A DNA stretch of 64,000 bases, taken from NCBI GenBank assembly GCA_037833965.1, contig AP031357.1, forward strand, positions 16,202,001 to 16,266,000, written 5' to 3'. Within the stretch, counting starts at the first letter, position 1, and each line of letters starts with the position of its first letter. This document shows positions 5,529-62,936 of the stretch, in pieces. The notes under the pieces were generated by a model. It worked only from the letters and a program-made list of their open reading frames with translations. It was not told the origin of the DNA and ran no database searches. Made by a program: the position numbers and the translations under genes. This DNA is from Marchantia polymorpha subsp. ruderalis. Taxonomy: Eukaryota > Streptophyta > Marchantiopsida > Marchantiales > Marchantiaceae.

Positions 5529-8479
5529 ATATATAACATTGTAATTTTAAACTTAAATTTTAATGTTGCATATATTTATATATGAAATTTCTTTTGAATT
5601 AAATAAGTAAAAAATTTATTTAAATTTTTATTTTAGATGGATATCATATAATCTTAAAATAAGATAAGATCACAAATATATCAAGTATACTCTTATCTAA
5701 ATATGATAAAATTTGTTAGATTGAAAACAAGTAAATGTGACATTTTGTATGACTCTTACTACAAATCAATAAAAACCCATCATATCCTTAATGATCTTGA
5801 AAATTGGATGAAACATGATTTATTTTTTTTAATATTTCAAATCTGAATTTAAGAATCTCTTTAACCTGTTTTAAAAATGTTTATTGAACTTCGAGCTTCA
5901 CTTATAAACGAAGATCATTTCAAAATGGGAGCTATCTGTACACAAAAGTTAAGGATGTAGGACCATTGAAATGATTTTTTCAGATACACAGAGCCTAAGA
6001 TAATATTAAATGCTCAGTTAAGTATAATGGACAGTGGAGAGCATCTGTCTAGGAAGAGACTAGAAAAGACATCTAGATGTTTCAGTTCTCCTGAAAGCTA
6101 TGCATCCTCCAAGAAGGTAAGTGCACGAGCTAAAATGTACGTACATGAAACAAGGAGACTTTGCGTGAAATTGCAGCTAAATGCACCATACGTCGGATGT
6201 TAATGATGAATACGCTTACAAGATTTGTGTCGAAATCATTGCAATTGTATACAAAGTGACTGTCAACAAAAGCAAGATGGCCAAATGCAACGGGGATTGC
6301 CTGATGTTCCTTCGTGATGTTCATAAAACTCTAGATATAACGACCTGTGCTGGATGGGGCCGCGTAAAAGGTTGCATTCGCAGCCTCGACATTATGAATT
6401 ATTAGAGAATGACGGAAAGACCATTATACTCGGCCATGCTAGTCTGCGTTTCCTGCATACGAGGTGATTTCGATTTTGTCCGGTACAAATTCACAGTTTC
6501 TTGGAAACTCCACACCATCGCTTGAATATAGACACTCATCTTGATACAGGGCGTAGATATCGACATCACACTATCATGAGAACATGCACAACAGCAGAGT
6601 GAATGTTTGTTGTATGTCTTCTCCTCCCGCAACGCTGTGAGACTTTTCGAATCACTTCCATTCTTCGATAGCGAAAAATTGATCCGTAACACCTCTCTTC
6701 TCTCTAAAGCTGCATGTGCAGGAGGTTGCCTTCGAGAAACTTGGATACTAGATATACTGATCAGTTTTACTCAGCTTGCCTAAGAATAAAGCTCTTGCCT
6801 GCCTTTGTGTGTAAAATTGATATACATCTTGTTAAGATCATTTGTGCACTATAAAATTCAATGCACAAATAGTAGAGAAATATTTATACATTCTATTATT
6901 CTTATGGCCTCTTATCACCGTGGCCGTCCGTAAATAGATAATGTCCGACCACACAAGCGAATGATGTGCTACATCAGCCTTCCACAAATTGCAATAATCT
7001 CAACACGCTCTAATCTGTCACAAGTGGAACTCAAAAACAACTCAGATATGTACTCCGGTTGGGGCACGACAGGTGGTCTGACGCAAGACAGAAGATGCTC
7101 CCGAAGATGGTAAGAAACTCAAGGGAAGATTAGCGATTACCATGTTTCGGCTGATTTTACCATAGAATCCTCCGGCCCTCAGGATCAACAGCGTTAGGTC
7201 TGATCTGGAGCCATGACTCATCCTCCGTGAGCGTGGCAAGGTTAGACTAATCTTGCCGCGCTCTTTGTTTGGAGTCAGATGCTTCTGCTCATAAACTTGG
7301 ATTTATTCTGGACATACATCGTACTAAATGCGCTGCGAGATTACTCTTCAGCAAAGGGATACGTGACCTTGCCACAAAAAGAGCCCTTGCGAGCAGGAAA
7401 GAACTCTTAAGTTGAAATTTCAAAAACAACGGCTGAATCTATATATGAAAAAATTAGGCCTAGGCTTTCAATTGCAGTATGCAAGGTGTATAGATGATGA
7501 AATCCTGATGAATTACTGCTTTTTTCATGATTATCCATTATCTTAAGTGGTGGATCACCTTTCTTCATTCTGGGTAAGTGGATCCATTGAGATCGCCTTC
7601 TAAGATAAGAAATTTGAAGATCATGCTAATTAAGGTAATGTACATATTTCATGGAGATGGAATCAAGGTACTGGAGGGAAATTTCAAGGCAATGTACTCA
7701 ATAAAAAAATTCGTGATGAGTACGTAAGCAGAGAAGCGGCCAAATGCTCCATCAAAGCAATAAAATGAACAAACTTTACACTTAATTATTCATGATCATT
7801 CCTTATCACATCACTACTTTTGTTAGCAATCACATGCGAAGCTCACAGATTTGCTTTCAGAGATGTTAAATTGAGTTATTCGTTAATCAAAAGCGCAGCA
7901 TGGGACCTGTTGTGAAGGCATGGTTTTAATTTCAGTTTCAAGACAATAAGCGTCTTTGTAGTTCACCTCGAAGACCACCTACCCTCGGACTTGCTCGACA
8001 CTCGTGTAGTGGAATGTAAGATCCCAATGAGAATCACAATCTTAGATATGTCTATTCGTACATTCGCAAGGAGACAACCATGGAAGAAAATTGGAAGCAG
8101 CGAGGCACTTCTGCAAGTGGGCATCTGTTGCACAAACTCTAGAGATGGCTGCCACCAGTTCTCTCTCATGGTTGCTTTGCAACAATTTTCGGACTTCTCG
8201 AAAGTGGAAGGATGAGCGACAGCGACTACCAAATTGTAAACTCGCAAATCAGTTTGTGTGAATTGCAAAATTGTCATCATAAAAAAGTAAATTATGTACG
8301 AGAGTGTGCTCCTATAAAACTTTCTGAGGCAAAAATGTTGAAAGAGGTTAGAGTTACCAGTTTCTCATCATTTCCTTAACCTTTTGAAGTACAACATATT
8401 CTTTTTCAAGTTCACTGAAATTATATATGAAACAGCATGCTTCAGTAATTTTCAAAAACGTGTTCTGTTAAGATCCTAA

Positions 8480-9345
8480 TTTTATTCGATATACTACTTG
8501 TTAATTGGGATTTTATGTAAGATAAGTTTTGATTTAAAGACGAAAATGAAAAAATTAAAGACAGATACGTGACCTTTTCACCGAACTTGTCATTGAAGAC
8601 ATCGACCACGCTCCGCGTGTATTTAACATGTCTAAGTTTGGCTTGCAGTTTGCTTCCACGTTTTGTGCAAACGTCAAGCATTTCGACCGATGGAAATCAC
8701 AGCTATGCATATTTCATGGCAGATCGCCAACGTATTCTTGGGCTGGCCTGACCCCGGTACATGGGTTAGATCAGTACTCTTGCAAGAAGCTCAGAGCAAT
8801 GCAAAAGACTGAAAATTTATGAATTGATGTCAATGCCACAAATTTGATGGCCGCCTTTGTCAGATTGAAATTACTTTCAACATTGAAACGACTCACGTGC
8901 AGTCCTGTTTTGTTGAGTTCACGATACATGTCTTGCAGAAAACGGGTTCTTGCAAATACAATCTGACAATGAGCAGACAGTGAAAAATGCTTAATCTGAG
9001 GAGAAGGTCGTACTAAAAAGAAAGCTCATGGATAGAATCTTCAGACAGGCCATGGAACTGTGTCATCTGCTTGATGCTCTTTCGCGAGGATGTGTAATTA
9101 TTGTATAGATGGTAAGAGTAGATGGGAAGAGGAGACGTAGCGAGAGATGAGGTGCATCAGGACTTCAGTGATTGAATATATATGTATTGCTGATTGAAAG
9201 TGGGTGGACACATTGGAAGTGCTGTTGCTGAAGAGGTATAAGCCTTTAGTCCAAGATGAACCCACTATATGCAAGGCATTGGAACTTTTCAGAAGACTGA
9301 AGCTTGGAACAAGAAATAACCTCACTCAAAATTGGATCTAAAGAG
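8480..9345 (-). pseudogene. Left arm: decayed copy of Patched-like gene fragment
   Basis: On the minus strand this stretch parallels 12.55-13.37 kb of the intact Patched-like gene, including intron sequence, so it is a DNA-level duplication and not a retrocopy. Matches by eye: the exon with the SNSTANVS glycosylation site (copy near 9190-9260), the exon with LQDMYCE and SCFNVEQNPNLR (copy near 8840-8950), and the exon with FAQNLGANTKPNLD and TRSVVDGLNDKFGE (copy near 8570-8690). The copy has lost one base relative to the parent in the codons following PNLDM, which shifts the frame, and exon borders have drifted. It can be followed to about 8480, where parent residues around FLFFEQYLHSYH are still faintly visible. 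It lies back to back with the plus-strand copy that begins near 9366. Confidence 0.78.
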
Positions 9346-9365
9346 GGGACGTTTTCCCGTGAAGG

Positions 9366-10640
9366 AATCATCGCTTCTTCGAAGCTTCAGTAGCTGCAAA
9401 TATTGAATGTCTGGATGGGAAGCTTGTAACTCTTCAGGTTCATCACTATCAAAATGTCGTACCCAGTTACACTTCAGACCTTCAATTAGCTATTAAGGTC
9501 TGGTCTAACTCGCCTCTCGCTAAGTTTGCTATTACCATATATAGAATCAGTACACATACTAATTGTATAGATGCACGAAAGAGCACCTAGAACATGACAC
9601 AATTATATGGCTTGTCTGAAAAGTTTCCCCTTCGTCTGCATACTTATACAGCCTCGTACTTCTACCCAGATCAATTTTGATTCATTGTCTGTTCGTTGTC
9701 GTATCGTTTCTCTGTAAGAGATGTATGTTATTAATACGGAAAAGGACTGTGGCTGAGTTGCCTCAATCTCGAGCAAATTCCCAATCTGAAAATGGCGGCT
9801 TTTAAAACTCTGTGATATGAACATCAGTCTAGAATCTATTGCATTGCTCTGAGTTCTTCCACTAGGATAGCTAATGGGGTCCCGCGTGACCTACTGGTAC
9901 GCTGTCCACCCGCCATGAAAATATCAACCGTGAATGTTTCACGGCTGAGATTATCATCGGAAGGAATGCCAGATGTTCGCATAAAATATGGTAAAATTCA
10001 ACCACGGAAACAAACTTGGACTTGATGAGAGATAAGTGGACACTGGTCAATGGCCTGAATGACAAGTTCGGTGAGACGTACACGTTCCTGTTATTCGAGT
10101 TATACTTGCAAAGCTTCCATGATCTTTAGCTGGTGGTTGGATTGGTTGGATTAACTGAGGTGAGTGTGTTTCCTTCACGTGCGGTGTGATACTTTTTAAT
10201 CCGCTGAATCAGCACGAGCGACGTAGGAATCCGACTGAACTGCCATGTGCAGTGGGAGTCGTTGCAGCCATCACCGTCTTTCAAATAAACTTACCTGTAC
10301 TCAGTTTCATGTGCGTGATTCTTCTCTTGACGTATCTCGAAGTACATGGATCTGGGCATACAATTGGCGGCTCATATGAAGGTAGACTTTCCTTTCTGTT
10401 AAATTCGCCCCATCTCCCACCAGCTTATAACGGAATTAGCATCACTACATAGACTTCACTTCGTTTTTAGCCGTCAAATCATGGCAATGGGAAAATAAAT
10501 GAGGCGAAGCTCTCTCCGAAATTTCTGAGTCTTTACCGAAGTCCGGACCTTGCATGTAAGCAGACGTGCGCAGCCATTTCTCTGTATAATCTTGGCAGTG
10601 TGGTAAGAAGGAACAAGCGACCCTACGGAGCTTTTGGTTG
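9366..10640 (+). pseudogene. Right arm: inverted decayed copy of Patched-like gene fragment
   Basis: Read on the plus strand, this segment follows the parent (minus strand, about 13.35 down to 12.02 kb) through five exons and the introns between them. In order they are the SNSTANVS exon (9400-9510), the QDMYCEHNE exon (about 9700-9800), the FAQNLGAN to HDLYLVV exon (9965-10155), the VGVFVAITVFQ exon (10245-10385) and the copy of the 29-nt microexon (10574-10603) with its GTAAG donor. Parent HDLYL reads HDL-stop here (TAG at 10137-10139), and bases are missing near 10085, so it cannot make the parent protein. Similarity ends at about 10640. The segment encoding GVVAAITVFQINLPVLSFM remains open for 88 codons and would otherwise look like a small gene. 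Confidence 0.82.
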
Positions 10641-11363
10641 ACTAAATGGACGCTGTAACTGTGTCGGACATGTGCCTAACCACTCTCGAAAATCTTCGGG
10701 GTACAACATTAAGCTTTACTGTACTGAGAAGTCGCATCCAAAAACGCATGAAAATACTGAAACTCAACGTCTGGATTGAAATCACGAGGTTATGTTTTCA
10801 TGCCCATAAGATCGGCAAAAATCCACGCAACAACTTTCAAGAGCGGGTCACATGGTTTCTTAGCCAGAATAGCGATGGATCCCGGAAGCAACTTACCGAA
10901 CCCTGTCACTCCCTGAACGACATCCTCAGGGTGCGTGACAACGACAGGTTCGGCTCGAGCACAGCAAGGTATGACATCAAGCGTGTCGGTAGAAAGTGCG
11001 CCTTATCCACATACAAGAAAAATCAATAGTCCCAACAGATCATGATACGCTAACGAGTACTATGTACGTGCATTTTTGGTTCCTTCATTACAGCTTGTAC
11101 AAACACATGGACGAATTTCTCGATCCACCGTGCGTATGTGGGTATGCCGCAATGCATGTGGACAGGAACCAGCCTATTCCTTCTGTCTGTGATAAAGCAT
11201 GACAACCAGCCAACCAGCCTTCTAATACTTTTGCTATGACTAATTTTACTGACAACTAGTTCGAGGCCCACGATGTTGGTCTAGCTACAGATCTAATTTA
11301 CCATTCCTATCTTTTGTATACTCTGTATGAACGTAAAGTTGTATAATCTGAGCTGTAGTAGTA
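10641..11363. other. Spacer between duplication and Patched-like gene; orphan 127-codon ORF
   Basis: This lies between the right arm and the 3' end of the Patched-like gene. It contains an open frame at 10646-11029 (+) of 127 codons, rich in Arg/Lys, with no motif I recognise. It begins where similarity to the parent gene stops, so it may be chance or relic sequence. No RNA gene or transposon end was seen. Confidence 0.3.
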
Positions 11364-14300
11364 TCAAGTATGGGGAGCAGTTCCGTTGCTGGGTGCCGAA
11401 TCCGCCTGCTCGACCTTCGACCCGTTCGTTTGGGCTTGCACGGCCCTTTGCTTGGCTTTGGCCGATGCTTCTTTGATGTGGTGCAAAGTGCCTGGTCCGA
11501 TCCACGTGAGCAGCGCAGGCAGAAGTACAAATCCGTTGAAGAAGCCAATGATCCCCATCACTGTAAACATGGCGAAGTAGTAGAGCCTGAAGGCATGGTA
11601 CCTGCACACGCCCACGTTCAGATTGAAGCCCTTTAGCAGAGGAACATGAACTGAATGATGTACTGTCCTCTAGAGGAGCGCTACAAGTTTCCTACGAGGT
11701 ACTCTTGTTAGATTCTAAATTATTGAGCAGTTGAATCATGGCGGTGACGACGTACTTTACAAACAAGAGAGGAAAAGTGGCGACGAATTGAGTTCCGAAG
11801 CCGTGCAGCAGAGGTTCGAAGGTCCACTCCAGAGCCTTGCGCACTCGTTCGGTCTTGGTTCCCTCCACGACCAGAAACGACCTCGCCAAGTACGTGAACT
11901 CGGCAGACATGCCAATCTGCAACAACATGCCAATCGGCGTATCAGTTACACTTCTCTTCTCTCCTCGAGGCGAGGAATGTATAATTTGCAAGACTGCTGC
12001 CCATGATGGGCGTGGGGTCGCATGCTACTTACCACAATGCCGAGATTCACCAGAGAAAGGGCTGAACGCGTGTCCAGTACATGCAAGGTCCGGACGAGAA
12101 GTCGTTAGCATCAGGAGGATTGTCTCAGGTAGAGATTCAAAAATTGCAGAGAGGACAGCGTCATTCATTCTCTACCATTCGCTCATTGCCATGATTTCGC
12201 GGCTAAATCAAGAGATGAGGAATATGAAGTGATCGTAAGTTCGTGATGAAGTGGTGAAGTGAGCAGAAAGGGAACTTACCATTCAGTTTAGCGCCAATAA
12301 TATACACAAATCCATACACTTCGAGATCCGTCACGAGAAGAATCACGCATATCAGAATGGATACAGTTAAGCTGAATTGAAAGACGGTGATTGCTACAAA
12401 AACTCCCACTGCACATGACATGCGCACGTCAGTTACAATCCTCTGTCGCTCGTGCTCGTTCAGCGAATGGAAAAGTATCAGAATTCATAACATTACGTGA
12501 AGGAAAAACACTCACCTAAGGCTAATCCGACCACCAGATAAAGATCATGGTAGCTGTGCAAGTATTGCTCGAAGAAGAGGAACGGGTACCCGTACATATA
12601 TGCGATGTTCTCACCAAACTTGTCATTCAGCCCATCGACCACGCTTCTTGTGTCTCTGATCATGTCTAAGTTTGGCTTCGTGTTTGCTCCCAGGTTTTGT
12701 GCAAACATCTGACATTACGCCCGATGAAAATCTTAGCCGTGTACGTTTCATTGCAGATGGCAAACGTGCTCGTGAGGCAGTCAGGACTGCTGTTGCTGGA
12801 TTAGACCATCCTAGTGGAAGAAACTTAGAGCAATGCAAAGAAGGTTTATAGAATGAGTTTCATACCACAGATTTGGTGGCCGCCACTCTCAGATTAGGAT
12901 TTTGCTCAACATTGAAGCAACTCAGTGGAAGTCCTGTTTCGTTGTGTTCACAATACATATCTTGGAGAGAAAGGATTCCTGCAAGTGGGAACCCATAACA
13001 AGCATACAGTGAATCAAACTTCATCTCCAGTGAATGCTTTTTATCGAGGGAGACTAAGGCACTCTTTAGAAGAGCCATGGAACTGTGTGATCTGTCATGG
13101 GCTCTGTGTGGTGACTATGTGTGACTGTCTGTAATGATTATACAGATGATCTGTTATGATACAGATGGTAAGAGTAGACTTACCAAGGGATGAGGTGGAC
13201 CAGCCCTCTAGTAGTTGATTGAAGGCTTGTGCTGGAACAGGGTATGACACATTGGCAGTGCTGTTACTGAAGAGGTAAAAACCTCCCATCCACGATGATT
13301 CCAATATCTGCACAGTATTGAAACATTTAAGCGATTGAAGATTGTAAAATAAATAAATCTCATTCAACAATTCGAAGTATATAGGGAGCAATTTATAGCT
13401 TACAAACACTTAATTTAATGCTTGTGTTTTAATTTCAAGTTCATGTACGCCCATTCAATTTAGAGACTACAAACGAGATGTGGATGAACGTACCCTGGGT
13501 TGAACTGGCGCCCATCGTTTTTTCTTCTGCAACTCCGAAAATATCTCCAGAATTTCCGCTTGCCGATTTGGATAATCAATTTCTCTTGTTACTATGGCCT
13601 ATATCCAACGAAATGCAATTGATTAGAAGAAAAAAGATTCCTCAGAAAGCATCAGGTATTGAAAACTTCTACTCTTTTGATTCGGAGGGATTCTAAAACC
13701 AATATCTCACAGTTCAGAATGAAATTTAGACAATTTACTCAAAATGCTCTGTACTTTGACACTTGAAATGCTCTTACCACATCATAGTTGGGAAATCGTT
13801 CCTCAGTGAGCTTGGCAAATGTGTTCTGATATGATCCTGCAATGCCCATTGATTGATATCCATTAAGTTGCAATCGACTTTCAATTAATCGAGCTTTTGC
13901 AAATTCACAATTAGCTTTTGTATGAGGATCCAAAGGCATGAGATTCAACGATTCTTACCTGCAAGGGTAACGTCTGATAGCTTTAGTCCGTGCTCCACCT
14001 TGTGAAAGCCAAGATATATCATTACAGCCAAAAATGCTGCTGATACTATTACCTGCATCAAAAAATTCAGAAGATTAGTTTAGGATTTCTTCTTTAACTA
14101 TTCGTATTTTATCAGGACCAGTATGGGCTAATGAAGCATGACGTTCCTATTGGAATTGGGATCCAAAAGAAACTTGGACTTTAATTACTTGGTAAATATT
14201 TTCTATTTCTTTGCGTACTCAATAATTAAAGGTTGGCAAGGGAAAAAACCGCCAATTATAGCTTCGTTAGGTTTTTTGTTGTTTGAATAAGGATAATTAA

Positions 14301-17300
14301 AGTATGAAAGTCTTACTTTTGCCAAACTAAACATGCAAATCTCTAGAGCCATGGAAAACTTTTCCAAACATGAAAAAAATTTTAAGCCATGAGCCACACA
14401 AGTGACGTACCACACAAATTTTGAACATATTGTTTTCGAACAAAGGTGCGTATCTTGAAGCTACCCATCTTGATATGGCAGTGCTCCCGGTATTTTCTTG
14501 CAGCGAAGGATCATTCACATCAAAGTTTGCGGCGTCATCACCTGCTACAGTTTCATCCTTCACTCCTGCTGCAGCTGCAGATAGATGGAAACTTTACTTT
14601 CAGTTTAAAACAATATAGAGAATTTGTTTAAATGTTTAAATAATAAGAGAAACAACTTGTTGGTTGGACCACTGAACTTGGTAAAAGGTGTAAGCAAGAT
14701 GACAAGGAAAAAGTTGCTTAAATAAAGTAGAAGTCTTTTCAATGATATTTTGGATGTCGAAATCATCTCTCTATTTTCATGCAAGTCAACAGAAGTCAAA
14801 CTTTCCCTTTGTGCTAACACTTACTTTCTGATGCTCCTTTGCTGCGATATCCATGCACTAGCCAAAGGTTCGGGTCATTGATTCCTGCCTGCGTCCCCAC
14901 AAACACCATCACCAGCAAAACGTTACTTCAGGAAGCATGAATGAATAACTTCTGGCAAAGAAGAATCAGGAAGAAAGGATATTTAATTGATTAGCTAGGT
15001 CTGATTGATCAAGGCTCGTTGATCTGACCTAAAGCCATGGTTATATGAACCCATGGATCGTGTTAAATCGTTACTACTAGCAATCACTATCTTTTTTATT
15101 GCTTCTTTCTTTCTATATCCCTCTCCCTTGTTTATAGTTACTCATAAAGTGGCAGTTCGCCTATGTTTACGAGCTTGATGATTTCTCGATGAGGGCGCGG
15201 GATGACGCGGCACAAAAAAAAATCTTTGGTTTCACGGCTGATTATCTATCATATATATGAGAAATCCAACCCTGAAGGCTTTAAATCTCCGCAGGGCCGT
15301 AGTGCATAAAAGGCTTTCCGATTTCGTGGCCTTCTTGTCTTACATACAATGGGCCACCCCTTATCGTGAAGTAGCCGCTTTTGCTCACTTTGGTTCAGAC
15401 CTTGATGCTGCGACTCAGTAAATATTAAATCGTGGGGTTAGGTTAACCGAGATGCTTGAACAAGCACAATATAGCTCACTTCCTATTGAGAAACAAATCG
15501 TGGTTTATTTATGCAGCTGTCGAAGGTAACTTAGACCAAATACCCGTCGCTCTCATAACTCACTATGAACAAGAGCTACTGAAATCTATTGAATCAGTTC
15601 TACTTTCTGTTATTGTACAACAAAAATACATCACTGAGCGAATTAGTAGTCAAGTGGCTACCTTTTGCCAAAAGATCTTCTTAGCTCGGAAAGATTTCTT
15701 CTATTTTCAGATAATTTTAGATAGTGTAGCAGTTTGCATGATCGAGAATACTTCCAAGAAAATTAGCTAGTCGGCACGTTCATTTCTTGCTTAAGTTCCT
15801 AGACCTGTTAAGACAATATTTCACAGGTTGGCACAAGAATACTTTCATATATTTTTGTAGCGATTTGCGCTGGTTGTTAGTCTGCTTATACAACTGTATA
15901 TATACCCCTGGACGCTCCGGTGAGAACTCAAAGTTATATGTGAAATGATCATCGTTCATCGGAGTTATGAAATCATCACTTTTATGAGTCTGCTTTTAAG
16001 TGAAGGCCACCAATAATTTCCCATATTTTCAAATTATTCACTCGGAAGCACAGTGGTTAAGAAAGTAATCTGAAAGTTTCAACTCACCTTTACCCGACGT
16101 GCATCGATAGCCATGATCGGCATGAAAATTAATATAAGTCCGATTGTGTGAAGACTTGCAGTTATGCCCATTTGCCAACAAAACCACTGAGAAATCGGCA
16201 TGGGATTCTGCATCACACCCAAGAAATGTTTGAGCAATTACTCAAAGCGATTTTTTCTTGAGAAACCTGAAACCAACTTAACTTCCATACACCCATGTGT
16301 TGCAACAAAATACTAGAGAAGCAAGGTGTATGTGCCGACTTAACTTACCAGGGAGGAGATGAAGAATGCAGCCAGAACGGAAAAGGTGGTGAGAATAACA
16401 GAAGGACCCGCAAGTGCGAGGGTAAGTCTCATTTCTCTCTCAGGAATGATGGAGCCAGACCCCATGGCTTGTAATCTCGGATCTTCTAAATAATTGCGCA
16501 TAATATTTACGAGTACAAACACATCATCAATACCTGCGCAATCACAAGTACCCAAAAAAATTATCTTCCAATTCACAAAGGTTTCATAGATACACATATG
16601 ATCACCGAGTGATCTCAGCAGCGGAAGTAACCTCGATTAAGATAAAAGATCTTTGTAAAGCTCATAACAGATACAAGAGAGATAAGTCCCGTTCTCACTA
16701 AGACCGTGTGACATCAGAAAAGAAGACAAAAACAAACAGATGAATCATCTTAAGCATTGATAGTGTTCCATCACGTCTTGGAGGCAACGAATGAAATTAA
16801 CAATAAGATAACAAGTTGAACACAGAAGATGAAAGCTGAAGGATTGCAATAGATTCTAAGGCAGGAATCGGTAAAGGGCATGTATCCATCGTGGATATCA
16901 TTGAGCCGATTCAAGACTGCGCCAACTAGAATCAAGAGTCTCACAACATACGTAGATTGGGATTGAAATTGAGGGAAAGAATGAACAGAATAAGCGAAAT
17001 ATCTCTAGTTAACGACATTTGCTTACCAAGACCGAGTGCCAAAAACGGTACCACGCCACCGGCAAGGGGTGAGAACTTAATGCCAATCATAGCAGTGAAT
17101 CCAAAGCCTGACAAGATGGACAATGTGACCACTGAAAGTCCCTGAAACATCATTATCAGAGAGATCAGAGTCATTTTAAGAAGAATGTCATGAGCAGTTG
17201 TCTTAAAAACTTCTACGTAAATTCACCTTCGTAAATCATAAATAATCTAGTGGTTCGATAGGGGGGAAATGTTTGCCATCTCCAAACATCAGTCTTCAGC

Positions 17301-20300
17301 TAGTCAAAGGCAAGGCTTCTTTGAAAGGGGAAGATAAGTGTCATAAACTTGGACAACTCAAAGCGCGTTCTTACAATCAAAATTAGAAACTTAAGTCCAA
17401 TTACTCAGAGATAATACATACTTGTTTGGATTTACATGATAACAAGAGATGAGATCTTACCGTAAGAACCACCCAAGTGTGAGAATGAACTGGTCTCTTG
17501 ATATTGATGAAGGCCAAGTATGCGTATAGAGAAGTTAGAATAACACTAAGTACAATTTGCCAGATTGGAGTCTTCGCAGAATCTGATATAATATCTTGAG
17601 AAGATCTCTGCAGACCAACATAACAATATGAGACTACCAAAAGAATTACGATAGTCCTGCGAGTTACTTTTCAGTCTAGTGAATTGGGCATCACGTAATT
17701 AGGATTCATAATAACATCTTACCCAGGTAAGGAACTCAAGTTGAAGATCGTTGTAGGTGGTGGCAAACAAATTGCTTTCTCTGTTACGTAAAGGTTCAAG
17801 GTGATCCACCATACGACCTTCCCACTTTCTGTGCAGATTCTTGCGTTGCTTCCGAGTGATATTTACTCCCAAAACTTCTTCTATGTAGTCTACCCAAAGG
17901 GGCTGGGCTTCATGATAATTGTTTTGACCCCACCGTATGCCTCCAATCTGTAAGATAAAAACTCAAGATCTTAAATTCGTGTTTAAATTGACGAAAGATC
18001 ACACTCCTTGATTTGAGGTGCTACAGTTCAGTGAAGATTCACATTCAGATACTCAATAAACTCCTACATGAGGCTGCTCACTGGCGCTTAAGCAATCCCC
18101 AGGGCAAATTATTCTACATGGTACTCTTATTGCAAATCAAGGAAATACTATGCTAATATGTACATCGAACATCGCAAGAGAAAGGGTCTGGACCGACCTT
18201 AGTGACATTGCCACCTTCGTTGTAATCGATACTACCCAAGGAAGCCAAAATTGGTGTGTGCAGACCAAACCAGGTAAGACAGCAAGGTAGACCTTCCGTG
18301 ATGCATGTAGCCACCTGCAAGCAATTAAACATACTCTTCTGAGGAACATGACGGAGATAAATTGCATTTCTGACTGGCAGGCTGAAATGCTGACATAGCA
18401 ACGCAGATGCAATTTCCTCAATCAATCACTTGAATCACATTATGATGCAAGTGTTTTGGAACCATTTCATTGCTTTGTTTAGAGCTTTGCAGTCACTCAC
18501 TTGAGGATTACTTGGAGCTGTATCCCATTCATCTGCAAGCTTGACGGCGGTGTTGATGTGGTCGATAATCTATAATATTTAAGATCATACAGAAGTCACT
18601 TTCTGCTTAAATCTTCAAGCACTAGCTTTGAATGCTGATTTTGGCGATTCTTGATAGTCAGATTCGAGAACGATTGATATGGAACAAAATACATATCATC
18701 CTGAAATCCTTGTGTGAGAAATAGAAAACAATTCCATTGCTGCTAACGGAAGCCCTGAAAATTTACAAACGAAATACATATCCTGATAATACTAAGCAAT
18801 CGACGTGCACAAAACATTTCATTGGCCTTTCTGATAACCTGTATTACCTCTTCACTAGACATTCCTTTGTAAGATCTTCTCCAGCGATATCCCCAAGAAA
18901 AGAAACTCTCTGTCTGGCTTTCAACCCCTGCCACAATCTACGATGCCAAACGAAGATAAATGAACACTGCATGGTACTTGGAAACTAACCACATCAATAA
19001 CTTCAAAAGTATATCCTTATGTCATATAATGTTCCTAAGGAGGTGACGTAAACAGTTTAGAAGATTCTTCGATGCGTTGAGAACGAAGCAACTGGTGCAA
19101 TGAAAGCAATTGAGCCAATGTTGTAAGACACTGTGCATAGCGACATTGTTCATGTGTTCATACAGTCGTGTGGTACTGATAAATCAGTTATTTCACCTGT
19201 GCAATTTGAGGAGCAGCTTGCTCAGCAGGCACTTGGGCTAGTGTGAACAACCCTTCAAGCTCTGATGTAAGTGCTACACTGCAAATGTTGGTTTGGGCGA
19301 TGAAAGATGCGGTTATGTCAACTAAGGTAAAGTTACCAGCTGCACAATAAAGAAGAAATACGTATCAGAATACAGTATTTGAAGCAGAATTTGAAGTCCG
19401 GAATATTATCTTCCATTCAACATTGTGAAATTTGAATAATGATAAACACTCTGTTCTTTCGTACTTGGAAGAGGTGGCATCGGAGTTTCAAGTTGTCGAA
19501 GGGCTTCAGGATAATCAAAACTTCCTCCCTCTCGGAAGCAGTCCATAGGTGTCAGCTTGGTACACGGGAACTTGGATATACCCCAGCCCACAGGTAAGAA
19601 GGAAGGTTTGATAGTGGAAGCTGCGAAAGTAGTGTTCAGAGCACAAGTCGACATCCTCTGGAAACCCCATGAAAGCCAATTGTTGTCCACCAATGGATTG
19701 TTTCCTGGTCTCAAAGTGGGAGGTACCAAAGGTCTTACGCACAGGTCGCTCTGCAATCAGAAACCATAACACCATTAAAGCTCCCGATTCACCTTGCGAC
19801 CGACCTCTAAAACGTAGAACCACTGGTTTACAGAAGCCATTTGAAAATGCACATCGTGCAAGGTGGAAGTACGAATTTCTAGAATTCAGTGTGGAGGATG
19901 TTGTGGTACCTGGACAAGTTGCACAGACTTTGTACTACCGGGAGGAACGTAATCGAGAGTGAGGTTGTCGAATAGAGGACCTATGGAGTAAGTCAATGCA
20001 TCCATTGCATGCGCCAGGTCCAGCTGTGCATCTGGGTTGTCCTTGGAAACAATGGCCACTATCTCTTGACGAGGAATTCCTCCGAATCTGATGAAGCCGG
20101 AAAAGTATATAAGAGCTTGGCCGCTTTAGATATACTGAATGCATGTCATCTGAAAGTGAGTTTCATAGGAACGAGATTCTCGAGAGGTTACCTGGCATCG
20201 TAAAATGCTTTTTCTTCCACGACTCGAGAACCGTGCTCCACCCATAGCTTCTCGAGATCTGTCTCCTTACTGTACCGAAACAGCCCGAAGCAGAATCCTC

Positions 20301-20341
20301 CCAGCAAAACTAAACCGAAGCTGCAAATGCGGCAGAGTGCA
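11364..20341 (-). CDS. Patched/NPC1-type RND membrane protein with sterol-sensing domain (N-terminal exon(s) unresolved)
   Basis: Exons from 5' to 3' (minus strand): 20341-20192, 20087-19910, 19750-19465, 19339-19197, 18569-18501, 18314-18198, 17947-17723, 17607-17461, 17141-17027, 16533-16349, 16207-16088, 14888-14825, 14574-14411, 14052-13959, 13836-13778, 13598-13494, 13307-13184, 12978-12866, 12708-12516, 12408-12280, 12061-12033, 11916-11756, 11601-11364. Phases agree at every junction, giving about 1068 residues plus a missing N-terminus. Order: TM1 (FGLVLLGGFCFGLF) then LEKLWVEHGSRV; luminal loop 1 with the Patched-like motif LTPMDCFREG; sterol-sensing domain with GLGIDDVFVLV (Asp pair, 16523-16528) and MAIDARRVK; TM7 (VIVSAAFLAVMIYLGF); glycosylated loop 2; second TM bundle with GIVIGMSAEF (Glu, 11899-11901); C-terminal FNGFVLLPALLTWIGPG and a short hydrophilic tail. 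Both charged motifs used for ion coupling in RND proteins are kept. A role in sterol/lipid transport or sensing is inferred from the family. Confidence 0.88.
12033..12061 (-). other. 29-nt microexon of the Patched-like gene
   Basis: The residues ALSLVNLGIV bridge two transmembrane exons. Acceptor CAG precedes 12061 and donor GTAAGT follows 12033. The exon completes the split Ala codon left by exon 12408-12280 (KLN plus G) and ends in phase 0 before IGMSAEF. It is also preserved as DNA in the right pseudogene arm at 10574-10603, with the same flanking CAG and GTAAG. Confidence 0.85.
15362..15700 (+). pseudogene. Nuclear copy of mitochondrial atp1 (ATP synthase alpha) C-terminal fragment, inside a Patched-like intron
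   Basis: On the plus strand, opposite to the host gene, the translation gives YREVAAFAHFGSDLDAATQ, then a TAA (15419-15421), then ILNRGVRLTEMLEQAQYSS and LPIEKQIVV. After a one-base frame change it continues YAAVEGNLDQIPVALITHYE, ELLKSIES and a degenerate tail to about 15700. The blocks FGSDLDAATQ, LNRG-RLTE, LPIEKQI and IYAAV are those of the mitochondrial F1 ATP synthase alpha subunit, not the plastid AtpA, which has FASDLD and TVEEQI. The fragment lacks the nucleotide-binding core, carries a stop and a frameshift, and sits in the 1.2-kb intron 14889-16087. It is therefore read as a mitochondrion-to-nucleus insertion (NUMT). The 104-codon ORF at 15456-15770 is its still-open part. Confidence 0.82.
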
Positions 20342-23110
20342 CTGAAATCAGGGCCAACATTGCACCAAAATGTTCCTTGCCTGGACTGACAGTTGATATG
20401 TGTGGAGGCTTAAGAAGCTCGAAATTTGGCCCGCCAAAAATTTCGATCGTAAAGGGTGCGAGGTCAGACACATCATGCTTGGCGTTCATGTTACCCCAAA
20501 CATGCACATTAGTCTACGGCACCAACAGATAGTCACATTTCCACGACCGACTCGACGCTCTGAATAGACAGCGAAATGGTCTGTCTCGAGGCGTTCAGTA
20601 ACTCTACGGAGAGAAGAAAGCACATGTGGAGACAGAGTCAGCTCGTTTCAGAGTCCAATGCCACTGATTGCATTCGATTGGAACAGCCATTCCTCCTCCA
20701 CTCAAGGAAACCATCATCTCTGCTCCGGAACTGACAGAAAAGTTAAAGATCTCAGAGATGTTTCTCTACGACGACGAAGGAAAGTGTCTTCTGCGAAGCC
20801 CGCGACGTACGCTGCCCAAGCAAAAATCCACGATGCATCTTGCCGACCTGGTCAATCTGACGTCAAGCCAGATTCCTCAGAGCAGAAGACCTGTACAGCA
20901 TGCGGACTGAGGGCGGGGAGGTCGGCCATGGAAGTCGGATAACGTTCTCGCAAACCTCTAATAATCGACGGAGCCGCTCCTAATTTCCTGCCTCGAATGC
21001 CACGGTGCGTACGTTCAATAACCCTCGACTCCGCTTGAAGAGCTGGCCAGAATCTGAACACTGATTGACAGCCAGGAGCCTGGGGCCGCAGCATCTCACT
21101 TTGAAGACTCGAAAGTACTGGACTGGAGATGCAACTTACACAAGAGGAATGAGGGGCTTCCGTGCAACGTAAGATCCGTATGAAGAAAACGCGTTGTTCA
21201 TCCACAAATGGTACTTCCCGACGGCTCGCTGAAACGAGCCATGCAACTGCACCATCGAAGAAAACAATCAGATCGCTAGCATGCCCCCACAAAGTTTACC
21301 CCGCATGCAAATTTCGACCAGATGCACAATAACACTGAAATTCGTCAGGCCATGGCAACAGATGCATGGACTGCTAGCGCCGCCAGAAATGTGGCTAAAC
21401 GAACAGTGGACTGTACCACCGAGTGGCTTCCAGTTCCATGTGATGCAGTTGGGTGGAAATCACCGTAGGGTCACCAATTCCTCCAGAACAGGAAGTACAA
21501 GCAGAACTGCGAGAAATTGACAATACGTGCGGAGCTGAACTCACCCCCATCTTTTCTGACTCAGGACTGGGCTCCCGTCCCCGGCCCCGGGAAAATTTCA
21601 GCAATGAAGCGCCAGCCCTGACTGCCTCTGGTCCTCGTCAAACTCTATGCTCCAGCATGCCTGCACTCGACAAGCGTACCACAACCTTCATGGTCACAAT
21701 CCACATTGTCCGAGTCTTGTGCAATATTTATCTACGTCTGCCCTTCAATGCCTGTAGCAATATGACAGACGCCACTGTCAGTGGCATCTTTCCTTAACCT
21801 GCGCAAACCTGGATAATCCAACACAAATTCTCTCAATCCCCGACCGAACAAACGTCACTCCTGTTCCCGACATTGAGCATCACCTCGGATCATCGCTCGA
21901 ATACACACACATGCCATCCACTCCACAGCAGAATCTGTTCTCTCTCACCCTCTATCTCTCCTTCATTCGCTATGGGCCTCGAGTAGCTCCCGAGTCTGAC
22001 CAATCGCTCGTGCGTTTCAAAGCACAAGGCCGCAATGCTCGCTCACCTCGATCCTCACAGCAGCTGCTCTGGACTGTAAGCAAGCAAACAGTCGCTTACG
22101 ATTCTCGAACTACTAAGACTTGAACATCATCGGCGGCTCTGGCGTCGGCAGCAAACTCAGACGTCATCGACCTGCTGCTGCTATTCATTCAATGGGTCTG
22201 CTGGGGCAGAGATGGTCGGTCGGTCGGTCAGTCAGTCAGTCAGTCAGTCCAGAAAGCAGGCAGGTCCAAAAGACGCAGCGTCGACGAGAGTTCGAGAGAG
22301 CGACACTAGCATTTACACTCGCGGCAGCAGCCGCAGCAACGCAGCTCCCAGCTACCCCGCAGCTCTTTCTCCAGCTGTTGTTGCCGTGTGGAGATTTCAC
22401 TTCTGACCCTCGGACTCTCGAGCATGTCAGATCCCCGCAACCGAACTCGACTCGATGCGCAACTACTGCGGTACCGGCATTACGCTCCCGTCCAGCTGCT
22501 AGCTCGGGCTCAGACTGCCTGCCGCTGCAGTCATAGGCCTGTCCTTTACTTGATTCGATGATTTGCACCTCCTGGTGCCGTTCGTGCGTTGCAGCTATAA
22601 AGTGCGACCGTACGTCACGTCGCGCGCTTTAAATCTAATTATAAGTTCTGCGATTGAAGCCGCTTGAAGTTTGAACCCTTGTTCTCTTCGCCCGCACTTT
22701 CGGCGATCCGAGAATCGGTCAAACTGCATACACTGCATACACCTCGGGCAATTACCGGACCCTGTTTTTCGAACCGTTAGTTTTTTCTTCCGAGCCCAGC
22801 CTTCGTTCGGGTTCTGACCGCTGAATGGACGCTGTGTCTTTCGGTCCTGTCGTGGAGTCCAAAGTCCGTACTGTACCTATTTCCCGTACAGTTGACATGT
22901 CATCTGGTTAATAGATCAAATTTAGTTTACCCCCCGGACCACGGATCCAAGATTGTAGTACAGTAGATTCTACCGTGTGGCCTGACTCCTGGTTTGTTTT
23001 GTCTGTTATTCTCCTACAAAGACCTCCTGCTGCCTGCCACGTTTCCCAGACTGACGTTGACGAGTGAAAGCCACGGGACCCCGGAGGGAAATGAAAGAAC
23101 GTTACTTCAA
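20342..23110 (-). promoter_or_regulatory. CpG-rich probable 5' region of the Patched-like gene
   Basis: Base composition changes sharply here from AT-rich to GC- and CpG-rich, as at the two other 5' gene ends in this window (about 49.5-50.3 and 53.7-54.5 kb). The missing first exon(s) should lie here. One candidate on the minus strand is an ATG-GGG followed by a GTGAGT donor near 21545-21555, but its phase does not fit the next known exon without another exon between. Several frames stay open by composition alone, for example 20852-21292 (-) and 22120-22536 (+), with no recognisable domain. Confidence 0.45.
22214..22249. repeat. Tetranucleotide microsatellite (GGTC)n(AGTC)n
   Basis: About three to four units of GGTC pass without interruption into five units of AGTC, within the CpG-rich region upstream of the Patched-like gene. 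This is a compound microsatellite, likely length-variable. Confidence 0.85.
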
Positions 23111-42429: not shown

Positions 42430-42940
42430 GGGGCGTGATAAATGGACATCACCTTTTTAATACATGGACATCACCCCATGTATAACCCCAGAGTGGGAGG
42501 GCAGAGCAGCAAACTGAGGACCCGTGCCGGAATATGACTCTCTCTCTCGGAGAGGGCTGCTGGTGATGACGATGTGGGGCAGGTAGTGCTACGATCCACA
42601 ATTGCATTTCTTCATGGGAACGACAAAATTCCAAGCGAGGGACGGACACCGTCGGTAGCAATGGCTCCGATGCGGAAGAGACTTAACTTGAGGGCAGGAG
42701 CGTGGGGTGAAGAGAAGAGTTTGTGGGTCATGTTTAGTGGGTGGGCTCAAGGGAGACTCTATAGCTCTCACACCTCGCCTCTGCATTGGCCCCAGGTTAG
42801 CGGGAGTGCGAGTCAAACTTTAGAGGAAATTCCGGGCTCTACCTCCTACCTAACTACTCACACCAAATGCGTGGCGCAATCACAAGACGGAGTGGGTGAT
42901 GTCCATATATCAAAAAGTTGATGTTCATTTATCAGCACAC
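42430..42940. mobile_element. Non-autonomous inverted-repeat element, 511 bp, with 8-bp target duplication
   Basis: Terminal inverted repeats of about 45 bp (left contains GTGATAAATGGACATCACC, right reverse-complemented contains CTGATAAATGAACATCAAC; both continue into ATATGGACATCACCC-like sequence) are flanked by perfect direct repeats TTTTACTA at 42422-42429 and 42941-42948. The interior is markedly GC-rich against an AT-rich background and has overlapping frames on both strands (42574-42921 +, 42589-42816 -) without a transposase motif. The 8-bp duplication suggests a hAT-related MITE. Confidence 0.8.
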
Positions 42941-50699: not shown

Positions 50700-53330
50700 A
50701 TTAGATACTTTAAGATTATATAGATCGTACGAGAGAGTGGGTGATTAAGTGAAAAAGTGCAGACGATTATAAAATTAATACGTTAATATTTTTACAATAC
50801 ATTAATATTTTTCAATATTTTATTCAAAAATGAATGAGAGACTGTTTAAAATCGAAAATGTATATTCAAATTTGACATGCATATTTTAATTTTAAATTTA
50901 AAAAAATTAAATGTATTGTACAAAATTTGTAGTCTACACTCTGCATCATAACAAAATTTGAATCATATCGATAAACATTAATGTAAGAAAAACATATTTT
51001 AGAACTTTCAAATTCACACTATGACACTTAATCTATAATTATGACATACAAAACCAAATACAATCAAATCAAAGTCATTAATAAATTTAGAAACTACACG
51101 ATTCATCATATCTTAGCGTACGTCGTGCATGTATTTATCAAATCATAGCGTGCGTCATGATCATATCCAACATATTCTGTAGACATTAACACATGTATTG
51201 TTTTTTATCCTAACATCAGTTAATTTTCATCAATAAAAGAAAGCTTAATATGCTCATTGTAAATATTCAGATAAGCTTACAAGATGAAATAATGCTTCAA
51301 TATTAGTCACTTTTTTCAATCAATTCAGTTCAAACCAGTTTGTGTGTTATTTTCAACATCTATCATCAGTCTTCATGTCTTTACATATTTAATATATCTT
51401 TCATGCTTGGAATATGCAAGGACATGTTGAACATGACATATATCATGTTTAGCATGTTCTTACATGTTACATTATGAACTATAATGTAATTGAATAAATA
51501 AAAATTTTTAATTTATTATAAATACTAAAATAAATGCATCTTCATCACTTGAATTGTTTTAGTTATTTTATTTAGATAAAAAATTATTTTATTCTGAAGT
51601 TTAAGATTTTTTAAAGATATAACATTTACATAATCTATAAAAAAATATAAAATATACAAAAGATCTTGTTTATCAGTTTATGTTGTCAGGTATATCTGTT
51701 TGATAAGTTCTTCTTGACTTAATCTGATCAAAAAATATTTTACATCATAAAATTTCATTTCATTGAAGAAATAAAAAGTACACACTCATTTTCAAATTAA
51801 TTGTGAACAGTCATCGTTTCAATAAGCAAAATTTTTAAATTTTTATTTTTTCATTCAGATTCATAAATTTCGTCAAATGGAAAAATTCTTCATCAATAAT
51901 TTTTTTTACTCATGTTATACTTGAAATAATATGGAAATAAATTTAATAAATTTTGGATATGAAAAGTAATTTTTTTCAAAAAAATATAATTTTTTAAATT
52001 CATGATGATAGTCTAAAAACCTTAGAAATTGATCAAAAATTAATATTTTTGATTGAAATGCATTTTGATTCAGCAAAGTAAATCTTTTGGTATTGTAGAT
52101 CATTATACATACTCTACTTTTTTATTTAAATTTCTATATTTGAAATTTTTATATAATAAAATTAATATTCTTGCATGTTTTACAATAAATATGTAAGTTT
52201 TTTTTTGAACTATTTGAAAATTATCTTCATATGCATAAATATTGGAAATTTACCACACTATTCACAATGTCATGATCACATATCAACTATTTCAATTTAT
52301 ATCCAATCATGACTTGTGAATAAACATCTTCGGTATGATTGAAAGACGAATGAATTTAAAATGAATGAACATCCAAGCATATGATGAAAATGATCAAATA
52401 TTATCTAATATATACTATTCACGTTGTCATTGTTGCAAGGTACTTTTTTAATACAAATAATTTATATGATTGCACTACATGTATATAGTTTATTCTAGGA
52501 ATGGTGAAAGTGAATTATCTCACTTCTACTGAATGTAAATTGGTTATAAGTCAAACTAAAAAGAACATGATTTATGACATGTGAGTTTAGATTTGGTATA
52601 CATAGCTAAATCATCTGATTTACTGACAGTTTGCGTACATCTTTTTGAAACTTGCGTAGATAAAATTAAGTGTGAAAATTCCATTCATGTATACATCTTA
52701 ATTTTCAATGCAATAGATTGATACTCTAGTATATTATGCACTATAAAAAGTATCACAATGACTAATCATAAGAGGTTGAATTTGTTACATCCACTCTGGC
52801 TGACATGTTTATCTGATTCATATTATTTTTACTTCACATGCAGTGTATTGCATTTGACCATCTTTCATATGAAGATCATGGTGTGTTTGATGAGATTAAG
52901 ATTTTGGATTGTTTCAAAGAAGGCTGACTTTGAAAAGTTTCGTCTTTTTTCAGTTTTGATGCAAGGTAGACTCATTATAAAAAACTTTCATGGATTTGGT
53001 TAGTTGATAAATACTAGAACTTTTTTATAGTCCTAGTTAGTGTTTGTATATGTGCATATACTTGATAATCATATCCATGCAAGAAACTTGGATAAAGTGT
53101 ACTATTTCTAGAGAGATATTATGTTCTTGATATACTACAAGAAATTTATTCTTTACCTATCTTTGACCATGTATTGGAATAGAGTCATGCAATTGTGTCG
53201 ATATACCTACAATTTCAATATGTTGTCCACTCTCTTATATTGAATATTGCGCCATTCTTTGTCGTACTGAAAATTGAAAACATAGAACTTACTCCGGGTT
53301 AGAGGATTTGAAACTGCTTATGAAGTTGCC
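50700..53330. other. AT-rich intergenic desert
   Basis: Very AT-rich DNA with no open frame over about 80 codons and no recognisable element ends. It separates the divergently oriented PC-esterase and USP genes. Confidence 0.6.
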
Positions 53331-59722: not shown

Positions 59723-59794
59723 GGGCATTTGGTCTAGTGGTATGATTCTTGCTTAGGGTGCAAGAGGTCCCGAGTTCAATTCTCGGAATGCCCC
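59723..59794 (+). tRNA. trnP-AGG: tRNA-Pro (anticodon AGG)
   Basis: A 72-nt sequence folds as a complete cloverleaf. The acceptor stem pairs GGGCATT with AATGCCC, the anticodon stem CTTGC pairs with GCAAG around loop TTAGGGT (anticodon AGG), and the T-stem CCGAG pairs with CTCGG around TTCAATT. Internal promoter boxes are present (A: TGGTCTAGTGGTA, B: AGTTCAATTC). There is no intron and no encoded CCA, and a TTTT stop signal for RNA polymerase III follows directly at 59795. It closely resembles plant nuclear tRNA-Pro. Confidence 0.96.
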
Positions 59795-62694: not shown

Positions 62695-62936
62695 GGGAGC
62701 CGCTAGTCACCACTCACTTTTTGCTTTTCACCACTCATCCCCAATTCTAAAGAACCCATGCGCACTTTTCTCGCGCTCCGATTTAGAGCCGCGCGGACAG
62801 CCTTCAGACTAGCATAAGTTGCTATGGTAAGTTCTTGGTAACGATCCATGGTGATGTAAGTGGTGTTTTAGACGCGCTTTTCAAAATTGGGGATGAGTGT
62901 TGAATAGCGAAAAGTGAGATCTGACTAACGGCTCCC
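62695..62936. mobile_element. MITE, 242 bp, long TIRs and perfect 8-bp target duplication
   Basis: Both ends begin GGGAGCCG(C/T)TAGTCA, and the inverted repeats can be followed for about 57 bp (shared CTCACTTTT, CACTCATCCCCAATT) at roughly 80 percent identity by eye. Perfect direct repeats TTTATTAT flank the element at 62687-62694 and 62937-62944. The interior of about 125 bp is GC-richer and non-coding. The 8-bp duplication points to a hAT-type transposase acting in trans. The first bases resemble the element at 40901 (GGGAGCGGTTAGT), suggesting one superfamily. Confidence 0.88.

Follow-up and report, generated by a model that had tools for sequence, protein, structure and literature searches.

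Beside a Patched-like sterol-sensing-domain gene of Marchantia polymorpha subsp. ruderalis lie two diverged pieces of that same gene, arranged head to head, which are very probably neutrally decaying duplicated-pseudogene fragments of their neighbour. The window, that is, the whole stretch of DNA that was analysed, comprises 64,000 nucleotides (C8:16202001-16266000), and the genome searched for related sequence amounts to 241.5 Mb in nine contigs, C1 measuring 5.6 Mb and the other eight 24-33 Mb. The parent gene occupies 11364-20340 on the minus strand and is apparently intact, with about 25 exons, as judged from splice sites, Pfam matches and solved relatives; its 5' limit is approximate (the start codon was not located) and its stop codon lies at 11364-11366. 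The limits of exons 19-23 were checked by script and most of the others were set by eye, a few of them (exons 3 and 6) being uncertain. Joined across the minus-strand splice sites, the parent translation runs to 1118 aa and carries both a sterol-sensing domain (PF12349, 2.2e-22, 80 bits) and a Patched domain (PF02460, 6.6e-17, 62.1 bits), each above the curated cut-off, which makes it a member of the Patched family. Its top solved relative was Patched-1 (1.3e-50, 175 bits), with NPC1 behind (4.7e-39, 137 bits), and this search of solved structures suggests that the parent is nearer to animal Patched-1 than to NPC1. An exon-wise genome search for PF02460, in which the parent's own exons singly gave no match, returned one match only, at C7:24575283-24575501 (L007), probably a further Patched or NPC1-type gene. 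None of the literature matches listed was a paper on a liverwort Patched gene, and the word Patched is absent from the main text of the Marchantia miRNA paper and of the reviews examined.

The left arm (8561-9347, minus strand) runs from parent exon 19 to the middle of exon 21, introns included, and aligns directly with parent 12594-13386 over 810 columns at 69.3% identity (E 5e-80). The right arm (9395-10627, plus strand) covers exons 19-23 with their introns and aligns, inverted, with parent 12011-13312 over 1358 columns at 66.3% (E 3e-102). Between the two lies a spacer at 9348-9394, delimited by the arm limits and placed inside the loop of the predicted hairpin. Beyond the end of the parent coding sequence, as set by the stop codon, the distance to the right arm is about 0.7 kb and that to the left arm about 2.0 kb. 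The arms also align with each other in two inverted blocks, 8561-8703 with 9944-10091 (68.7%) and 8781-9118 with 9529-9861 (64.1%), both at E about 1e-6 and too weak for the cut-off (E<=1e-6) of a self-comparison of the 64 kb, which returned five pairs: each arm with the parent, and three inverted matches of 41-64 columns. These three are short inverted repeats at 42436-42934, 51408-51471 and 62695-62936 with 78-90% identity, and one resembles a palindrome. The preliminary description of this DNA had reported diverged Patched-like copies, introns included, inverted to each other beside their parent; these alignments bear it out, homology among arms and parent being found in the orientations it gave and its arm coordinates being correct within about 80 bases. 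Both arms retain intron sequence, the arm-parent alignment crossing the introns, which rules out a processed pseudogene. As that description had also held, the reading frames of both arms are disrupted. In the left arm the frame is broken twice, in exon 19 (+4 nt) and in exon 21 (-1 nt), and in the right arm by several indels and stops across exons 19-21, exon 22 of this arm being nearly open still; the exon-19 splice donor is lost in both arms, which read CT where the parent has GT. Each arm is a partial copy with the exon-intron structure of the parent, disabled by frameshifts, stops and a lost splice donor, as befits a duplicated pseudogene fragment.

Substitution rates point to decay of these fragments at the neutral pace. 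Three-branch estimates over parent 12594-13312 (346-351 exon and 319-348 intron columns, gapped columns excluded) gave exon branch lengths of 0.072 for the parent, 0.229 for the left arm and 0.269 for the right, and intron branch lengths of 0.227, 0.251 and 0.210, respectively. Thus, the exons of the arms have changed at about the speed of introns, and only the exons of the parent are slow, by a factor of about three. Arm-arm identity at codon positions 1, 2 and 3 was flat or slightly reversed (0.605, 0.638 and 0.664), with no third-position excess of change across exons 19-21. Taken together, the similar exon and intron branches and the absence of a third-position excess suggest neutral evolution of the former coding sites in both arms. 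A pairwise aligner scored 0.59-0.65 identity on shuffled sequence, and the branch estimates used another alignment; as intron identity may have been inflated by the aligner, the codon-position result is the safer of the two, and true intron rates may be higher, in which case weak constraint on the arms is possible. Since the shuffled control reached 0.59-0.65, no ages of the relics were drawn from identity. Coding constraint on the right arm, considered in view of its nearly open exon 22, was rejected for want of a third-position excess, in a comparison limited to exons 19-21. A methylation footprint was rejected likewise, the counts of C>T, G>A, T>C and A>G changes (13, 12, 13 and 7 in left exons; 19, 13, 21 and 17 in left introns; 22, 13, 16 and 13 in right exons; 22, 13, 21 and 19 in right introns) having no clear excess by inspection.

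The preliminary description had further proposed that a read-through transcript might form a long imperfect hairpin with complementarity to parent exons, and folding in silico agrees. In the minimum-energy fold of the plus strand of 8541-10660, 434 of the 787 left-arm nucleotides paired with the right arm, in register from 8561/10091 to 9291/9395, and in the minus-strand fold 423 of 1233 right-arm nucleotides paired with the left arm. Plus-strand RNA of the left arm would be antisense to the parent, its similarity to the parent exons lying on the antisense strand. Of the left arm, 55.1% has a partner in the right arm within the core hairpin, whose energy is -0.369 kcal/nt; neutral simulations (n = 20, branch 0.24 per arm, indel and transition settings of our own choice) gave 55.6 +/- 6.0% and -0.360 +/- 0.018 kcal/nt, and in shuffles (n = 8) 12.2% of the left arm was paired. 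The arms are 64.5% identical across 665 aligned positions, which in a plus transcript comprise 429 Watson-Crick, 64 G-U and 49 A-C oppositions, so that the excess of G-U over A-C is small (z about 1.4, calculated by hand); among ungapped 21-nt arm-arm windows, 87 of 445 have five mismatches or fewer. Long double-stranded RNA, as expected of an inverted-repeat siRNA locus, could therefore be formed by the arms according to the folding model, imperfect as it would be at such identity.

The preliminary description had asked whether any short block stays unusually conserved, and here the answer is negative but for one marginal signal. No 21-nt window was outstanding in five best-window tests (P 0.48-0.86), and the longest run identical in both arms and the parent was 12 (P 0.10); the intron block TTGCATTGCTCT, identical in all three, was rejected as a conserved block on this P value. 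The marginal signal is that right-arm 21-nt windows with two mismatches or fewer to the parent numbered 51 in exons against a shuffle mean of 26, and 63 against 34 in all sequence (P 0.045 in both), the left-arm counts being 18 against 16 in exons (P 0.41) and 23 against 12 in all sequence (P 0.13). Across these four tests, of which the two right-arm ones overlap, near-matches to the parent may be partly clustered in the right arm, at a marginal level. At gathering thresholds, Rfam matched nothing in the window other than a tRNA, namely tRNA-Pro (AGG) at 59723-59794. A selected small-RNA locus, as first envisaged, does not emerge from these results, given neutral rates, no outstanding block and pairing at the neutral level; uniform neutral decay, which the preliminary description had set against its own reading, is what the data resemble, arm exons changing at about intron rates and pairing being no stronger than in simulated decay.

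How the two arms relate to each other was approached through shared changes. At 230 first and second codon positions, the left arm differs from the parent at 52 and the right at 54, with 14 changed in both (about 12 expected) and 5 of the 230 changed to the same base (about 4 expected), the expected figures being calculated by hand on the assumption of independence. As shared changes are at chance level, descent of the arms from one earlier copy is without support from them. Intron columns in which two of the three sequences agree are star-like (parent-left 40, parent-right 45, left-right 41). Trees of the arms and other relics were weak, the right arm joining the C7 relics in one region (66% bootstrap, with a common 12-nt gap) and the left arm in another (44% bootstrap). 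Stretches of 12 and 6 nt of parent intron 19 are missing from both arms, and these two gaps, together with the common CT donor change, hint at shared ancestry. Inverted duplication of one fragment already detached from the parent nevertheless finds no excess of shared changes in its favour, and the right arm goes weakly with the C7 relics. From these comparisons we conclude that the two arms probably separated from the parent in roughly the same period and had little or no past in common as one pseudogene; it is possible that a single event made both at once, straight from the parent.

The arms are not the sole remains of this gene. Used as queries in DNA searches that score a limited number of candidates and may therefore miss relics, the arms and the parent's 3' part located matches at seven further places, which with the two arms make at least nine relics, eight of them bearing exons and one intron only, on three chromosomes (C7, C8 and C9). 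On C7 they lie at 4.5075 and 4.5278 Mb and are about 90% alike over 266 columns, one being probably a later copy on account of this likeness; exon-bearing relics lie at C8:9.375 and C8:13.271 Mb and at C9:10.035 and C9:20.090-20.093 Mb, and the match at C9:6.999 Mb is confined to intron and could be another repeat. Every detected match falls within parent 11816-14611 (minus strand), exons 15-24, about one third of the gene. By protein, no relics of exons 1-13 were found, as 8 of 8 matches to exons 1-8 and 5 of 5 to exons 9-13 were the parent itself; the 11 matches to exons 14-20 were the parent, C9:10.035, C9:20.090 and the left arm. When 14700-20600 was searched as DNA, one of the 36 rows was the parent and the other 35 were confined to intron 13. 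At 15027-16032 this intron holds repeat sequence with at least 35 matches elsewhere, 65-97% identical and on all nine contigs. Two relics of nine, the arms, lie within about 3 kb of the parent, which is unlikely under random dispersal. Two rearranged stretches were seen besides. On C9, a mosaic of 243 bases (L025:4864-5106) combines pieces like the exon-16 relic of L034, parent exon 21 (85%) and exon 15 (83%), out of gene order. On C7, sequence flanking the Patched relic has three copies within about 20 kb, 86-89% alike (L035:1-1678, L009:1-1375 and L009:5345-6087), one opposite to the other two and two of the three adjoining a relic.

Two of the relics are joined to a dispersed repeat, X, a copy of which lies in the window at 6462-7157, with further copies at L026:5726-6442 and L032:1866-2030. 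The C8:9.375 and C8:13.271 Mb relics end at parent 11819 and 11816, respectively, and pass within 0-2 bases into X, the X side of both junctions being sequence like the window from 7079 downward; they also group together in the tree (96%). Two X copies joined to relics at the same X position suggest a chimeric element. Repeat X is also present on C2, C3, C4 and C7, and in four X-bearing stretches of 1.1-1.5 kb sampled there neither the parent gene nor the arms had a match. No convincing terminal inverted repeats were seen in two copies of X, and by eye it has no long shared reading frame.

Capture and spread of a gene fragment by X, with the arms as decayed copies of a Pack-type chimera, is accordingly a reading to be weighed, and one we hold tentatively as a minority possibility. 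The shared junction and 96% grouping of the C8 relics favour it, as do the X copy in the window, which lies to the corresponding side of the left arm, and the occurrence of X in stretches free of parent and arm sequence, and it would explain why all relic matches come from one third of one gene (exons 15-24). However, in the window X lies 1.5 kb from the left arm and continues past 7079, no X match adjoins the right arm, and the two copies inspected for terminal repeats had none that convinced. That the arms are what is left of full-length tandem and inverted paralogues of the parent would fit their retained introns and gene order and their position next to it, but the protein matches to exons 1-13 were all the parent, with no trace elsewhere, and no exon 25 match was found beside the arms; this reading is disfavoured and unlikely.

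Silencing explanations fare worse. In one, the pair would be transcribed as a long inverted-repeat siRNA locus, diced by DCL3/DCL4-type enzymes, and would repress or methylate the Patched-like gene. The hairpin in register on both strands and the 21-nt windows of near-complementarity between the arms speak for it, as does rice, where inverted adjacent pseudogenes have small RNAs (PMC2708354); there is, however, no sign of pairing constraint, no clear wobble bias and no hairpin better than neutral simulation, and the arm-arm identity is below the 83% and 96% given for the rice pairs, which leaves this explanation highly unlikely. A relic pair that is still transcribed and supplies siRNAs directed at the Patched-like gene keeps a slim chance; it would be an old silencer with a long hairpin built from the debris of its own target, functional despite its neutral-looking sequence. 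A MIRNA at a young or proto stage, arisen when its target gene was duplicated in inverted form, is extremely unlikely. Fragments of the target gene do lie inverted next to it, as that model has it (PMC3237417), but no 21-nt block is outstanding and Rfam at gathering thresholds yields only the tRNA. The length of the structure tells against it as well. The limit for a foldback in MIRNA annotation is about 300 nt, and the in-register foldback here, from 8561 to 10091, is far longer at about 1.5 kb. Nor do sequence comparisons suggest a block preserved against the target, the clustering in the right arm being marginal.

Neutral decay of duplicated fragments therefore remains our preferred explanation. 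The 3' part of the neighbouring Patched-like gene would have been copied piecemeal at the DNA level, probably in one dispersal episode that perhaps involved repeat X; two of the copies, among the eight exon-bearing relics (nine with the intron-only match), would have ended up next to the parent in head-to-head arrangement, and both arms would since have decayed with no detectable constraint on coding or on pairing. The arms probably yield no functional transcript, and if transcribed, their RNA could form a long imperfect hairpin as a by-product of orientation, not as a kept function.

To conclude, we describe an inverted pair of gene fragments that can stand as a counter-example where small RNA loci are held to arise by inverted duplication: it folds as strongly as neutral decay predicts, and foldability and similarity to a target are therefore weak evidence for a silencing locus at such divergence. 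The scattering of one third of one gene as relics, two of them joined to a repeat, is in turn a lead on gene-fragment dispersal. Judged by its sequence, the pair appears ordinary, matching the geometry of known inverted-repeat small-RNA loci with no sign of function; the chance that it still acts in silencing is low. It resembles the adjacent inverted paralogous pseudogenes of rice (PMC2708354) in that two pseudogene pieces of one parent lie close together on opposite strands and are predicted to form a long duplex; the two rice pairs, however, have mapped small RNAs and identities of 83% and 96%, whereas the arms here are 64.5% identical. With the inverted duplication model for the origin of MIRNA genes, and with the pseudogene variant of that model (PMC3237417), it shares inverted fragments of a possible target gene side by side, and it differs in a far longer hairpin, near-uniform decay and no miRNA-like block found. 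Arabidopsis IR71, an endogenous inverted-repeat siRNA locus (PMC4687873), likewise has a long stem-loop that needs no RNA-dependent RNA polymerase, but IR71 is a proven siRNA precursor. The closest likeness in kind is to duplicated, non-processed pseudogene fragments, with introns retained, frames broken, near-neutral rates and a constrained parent; among these, only the head-to-head orientation beside the parent is unusual.
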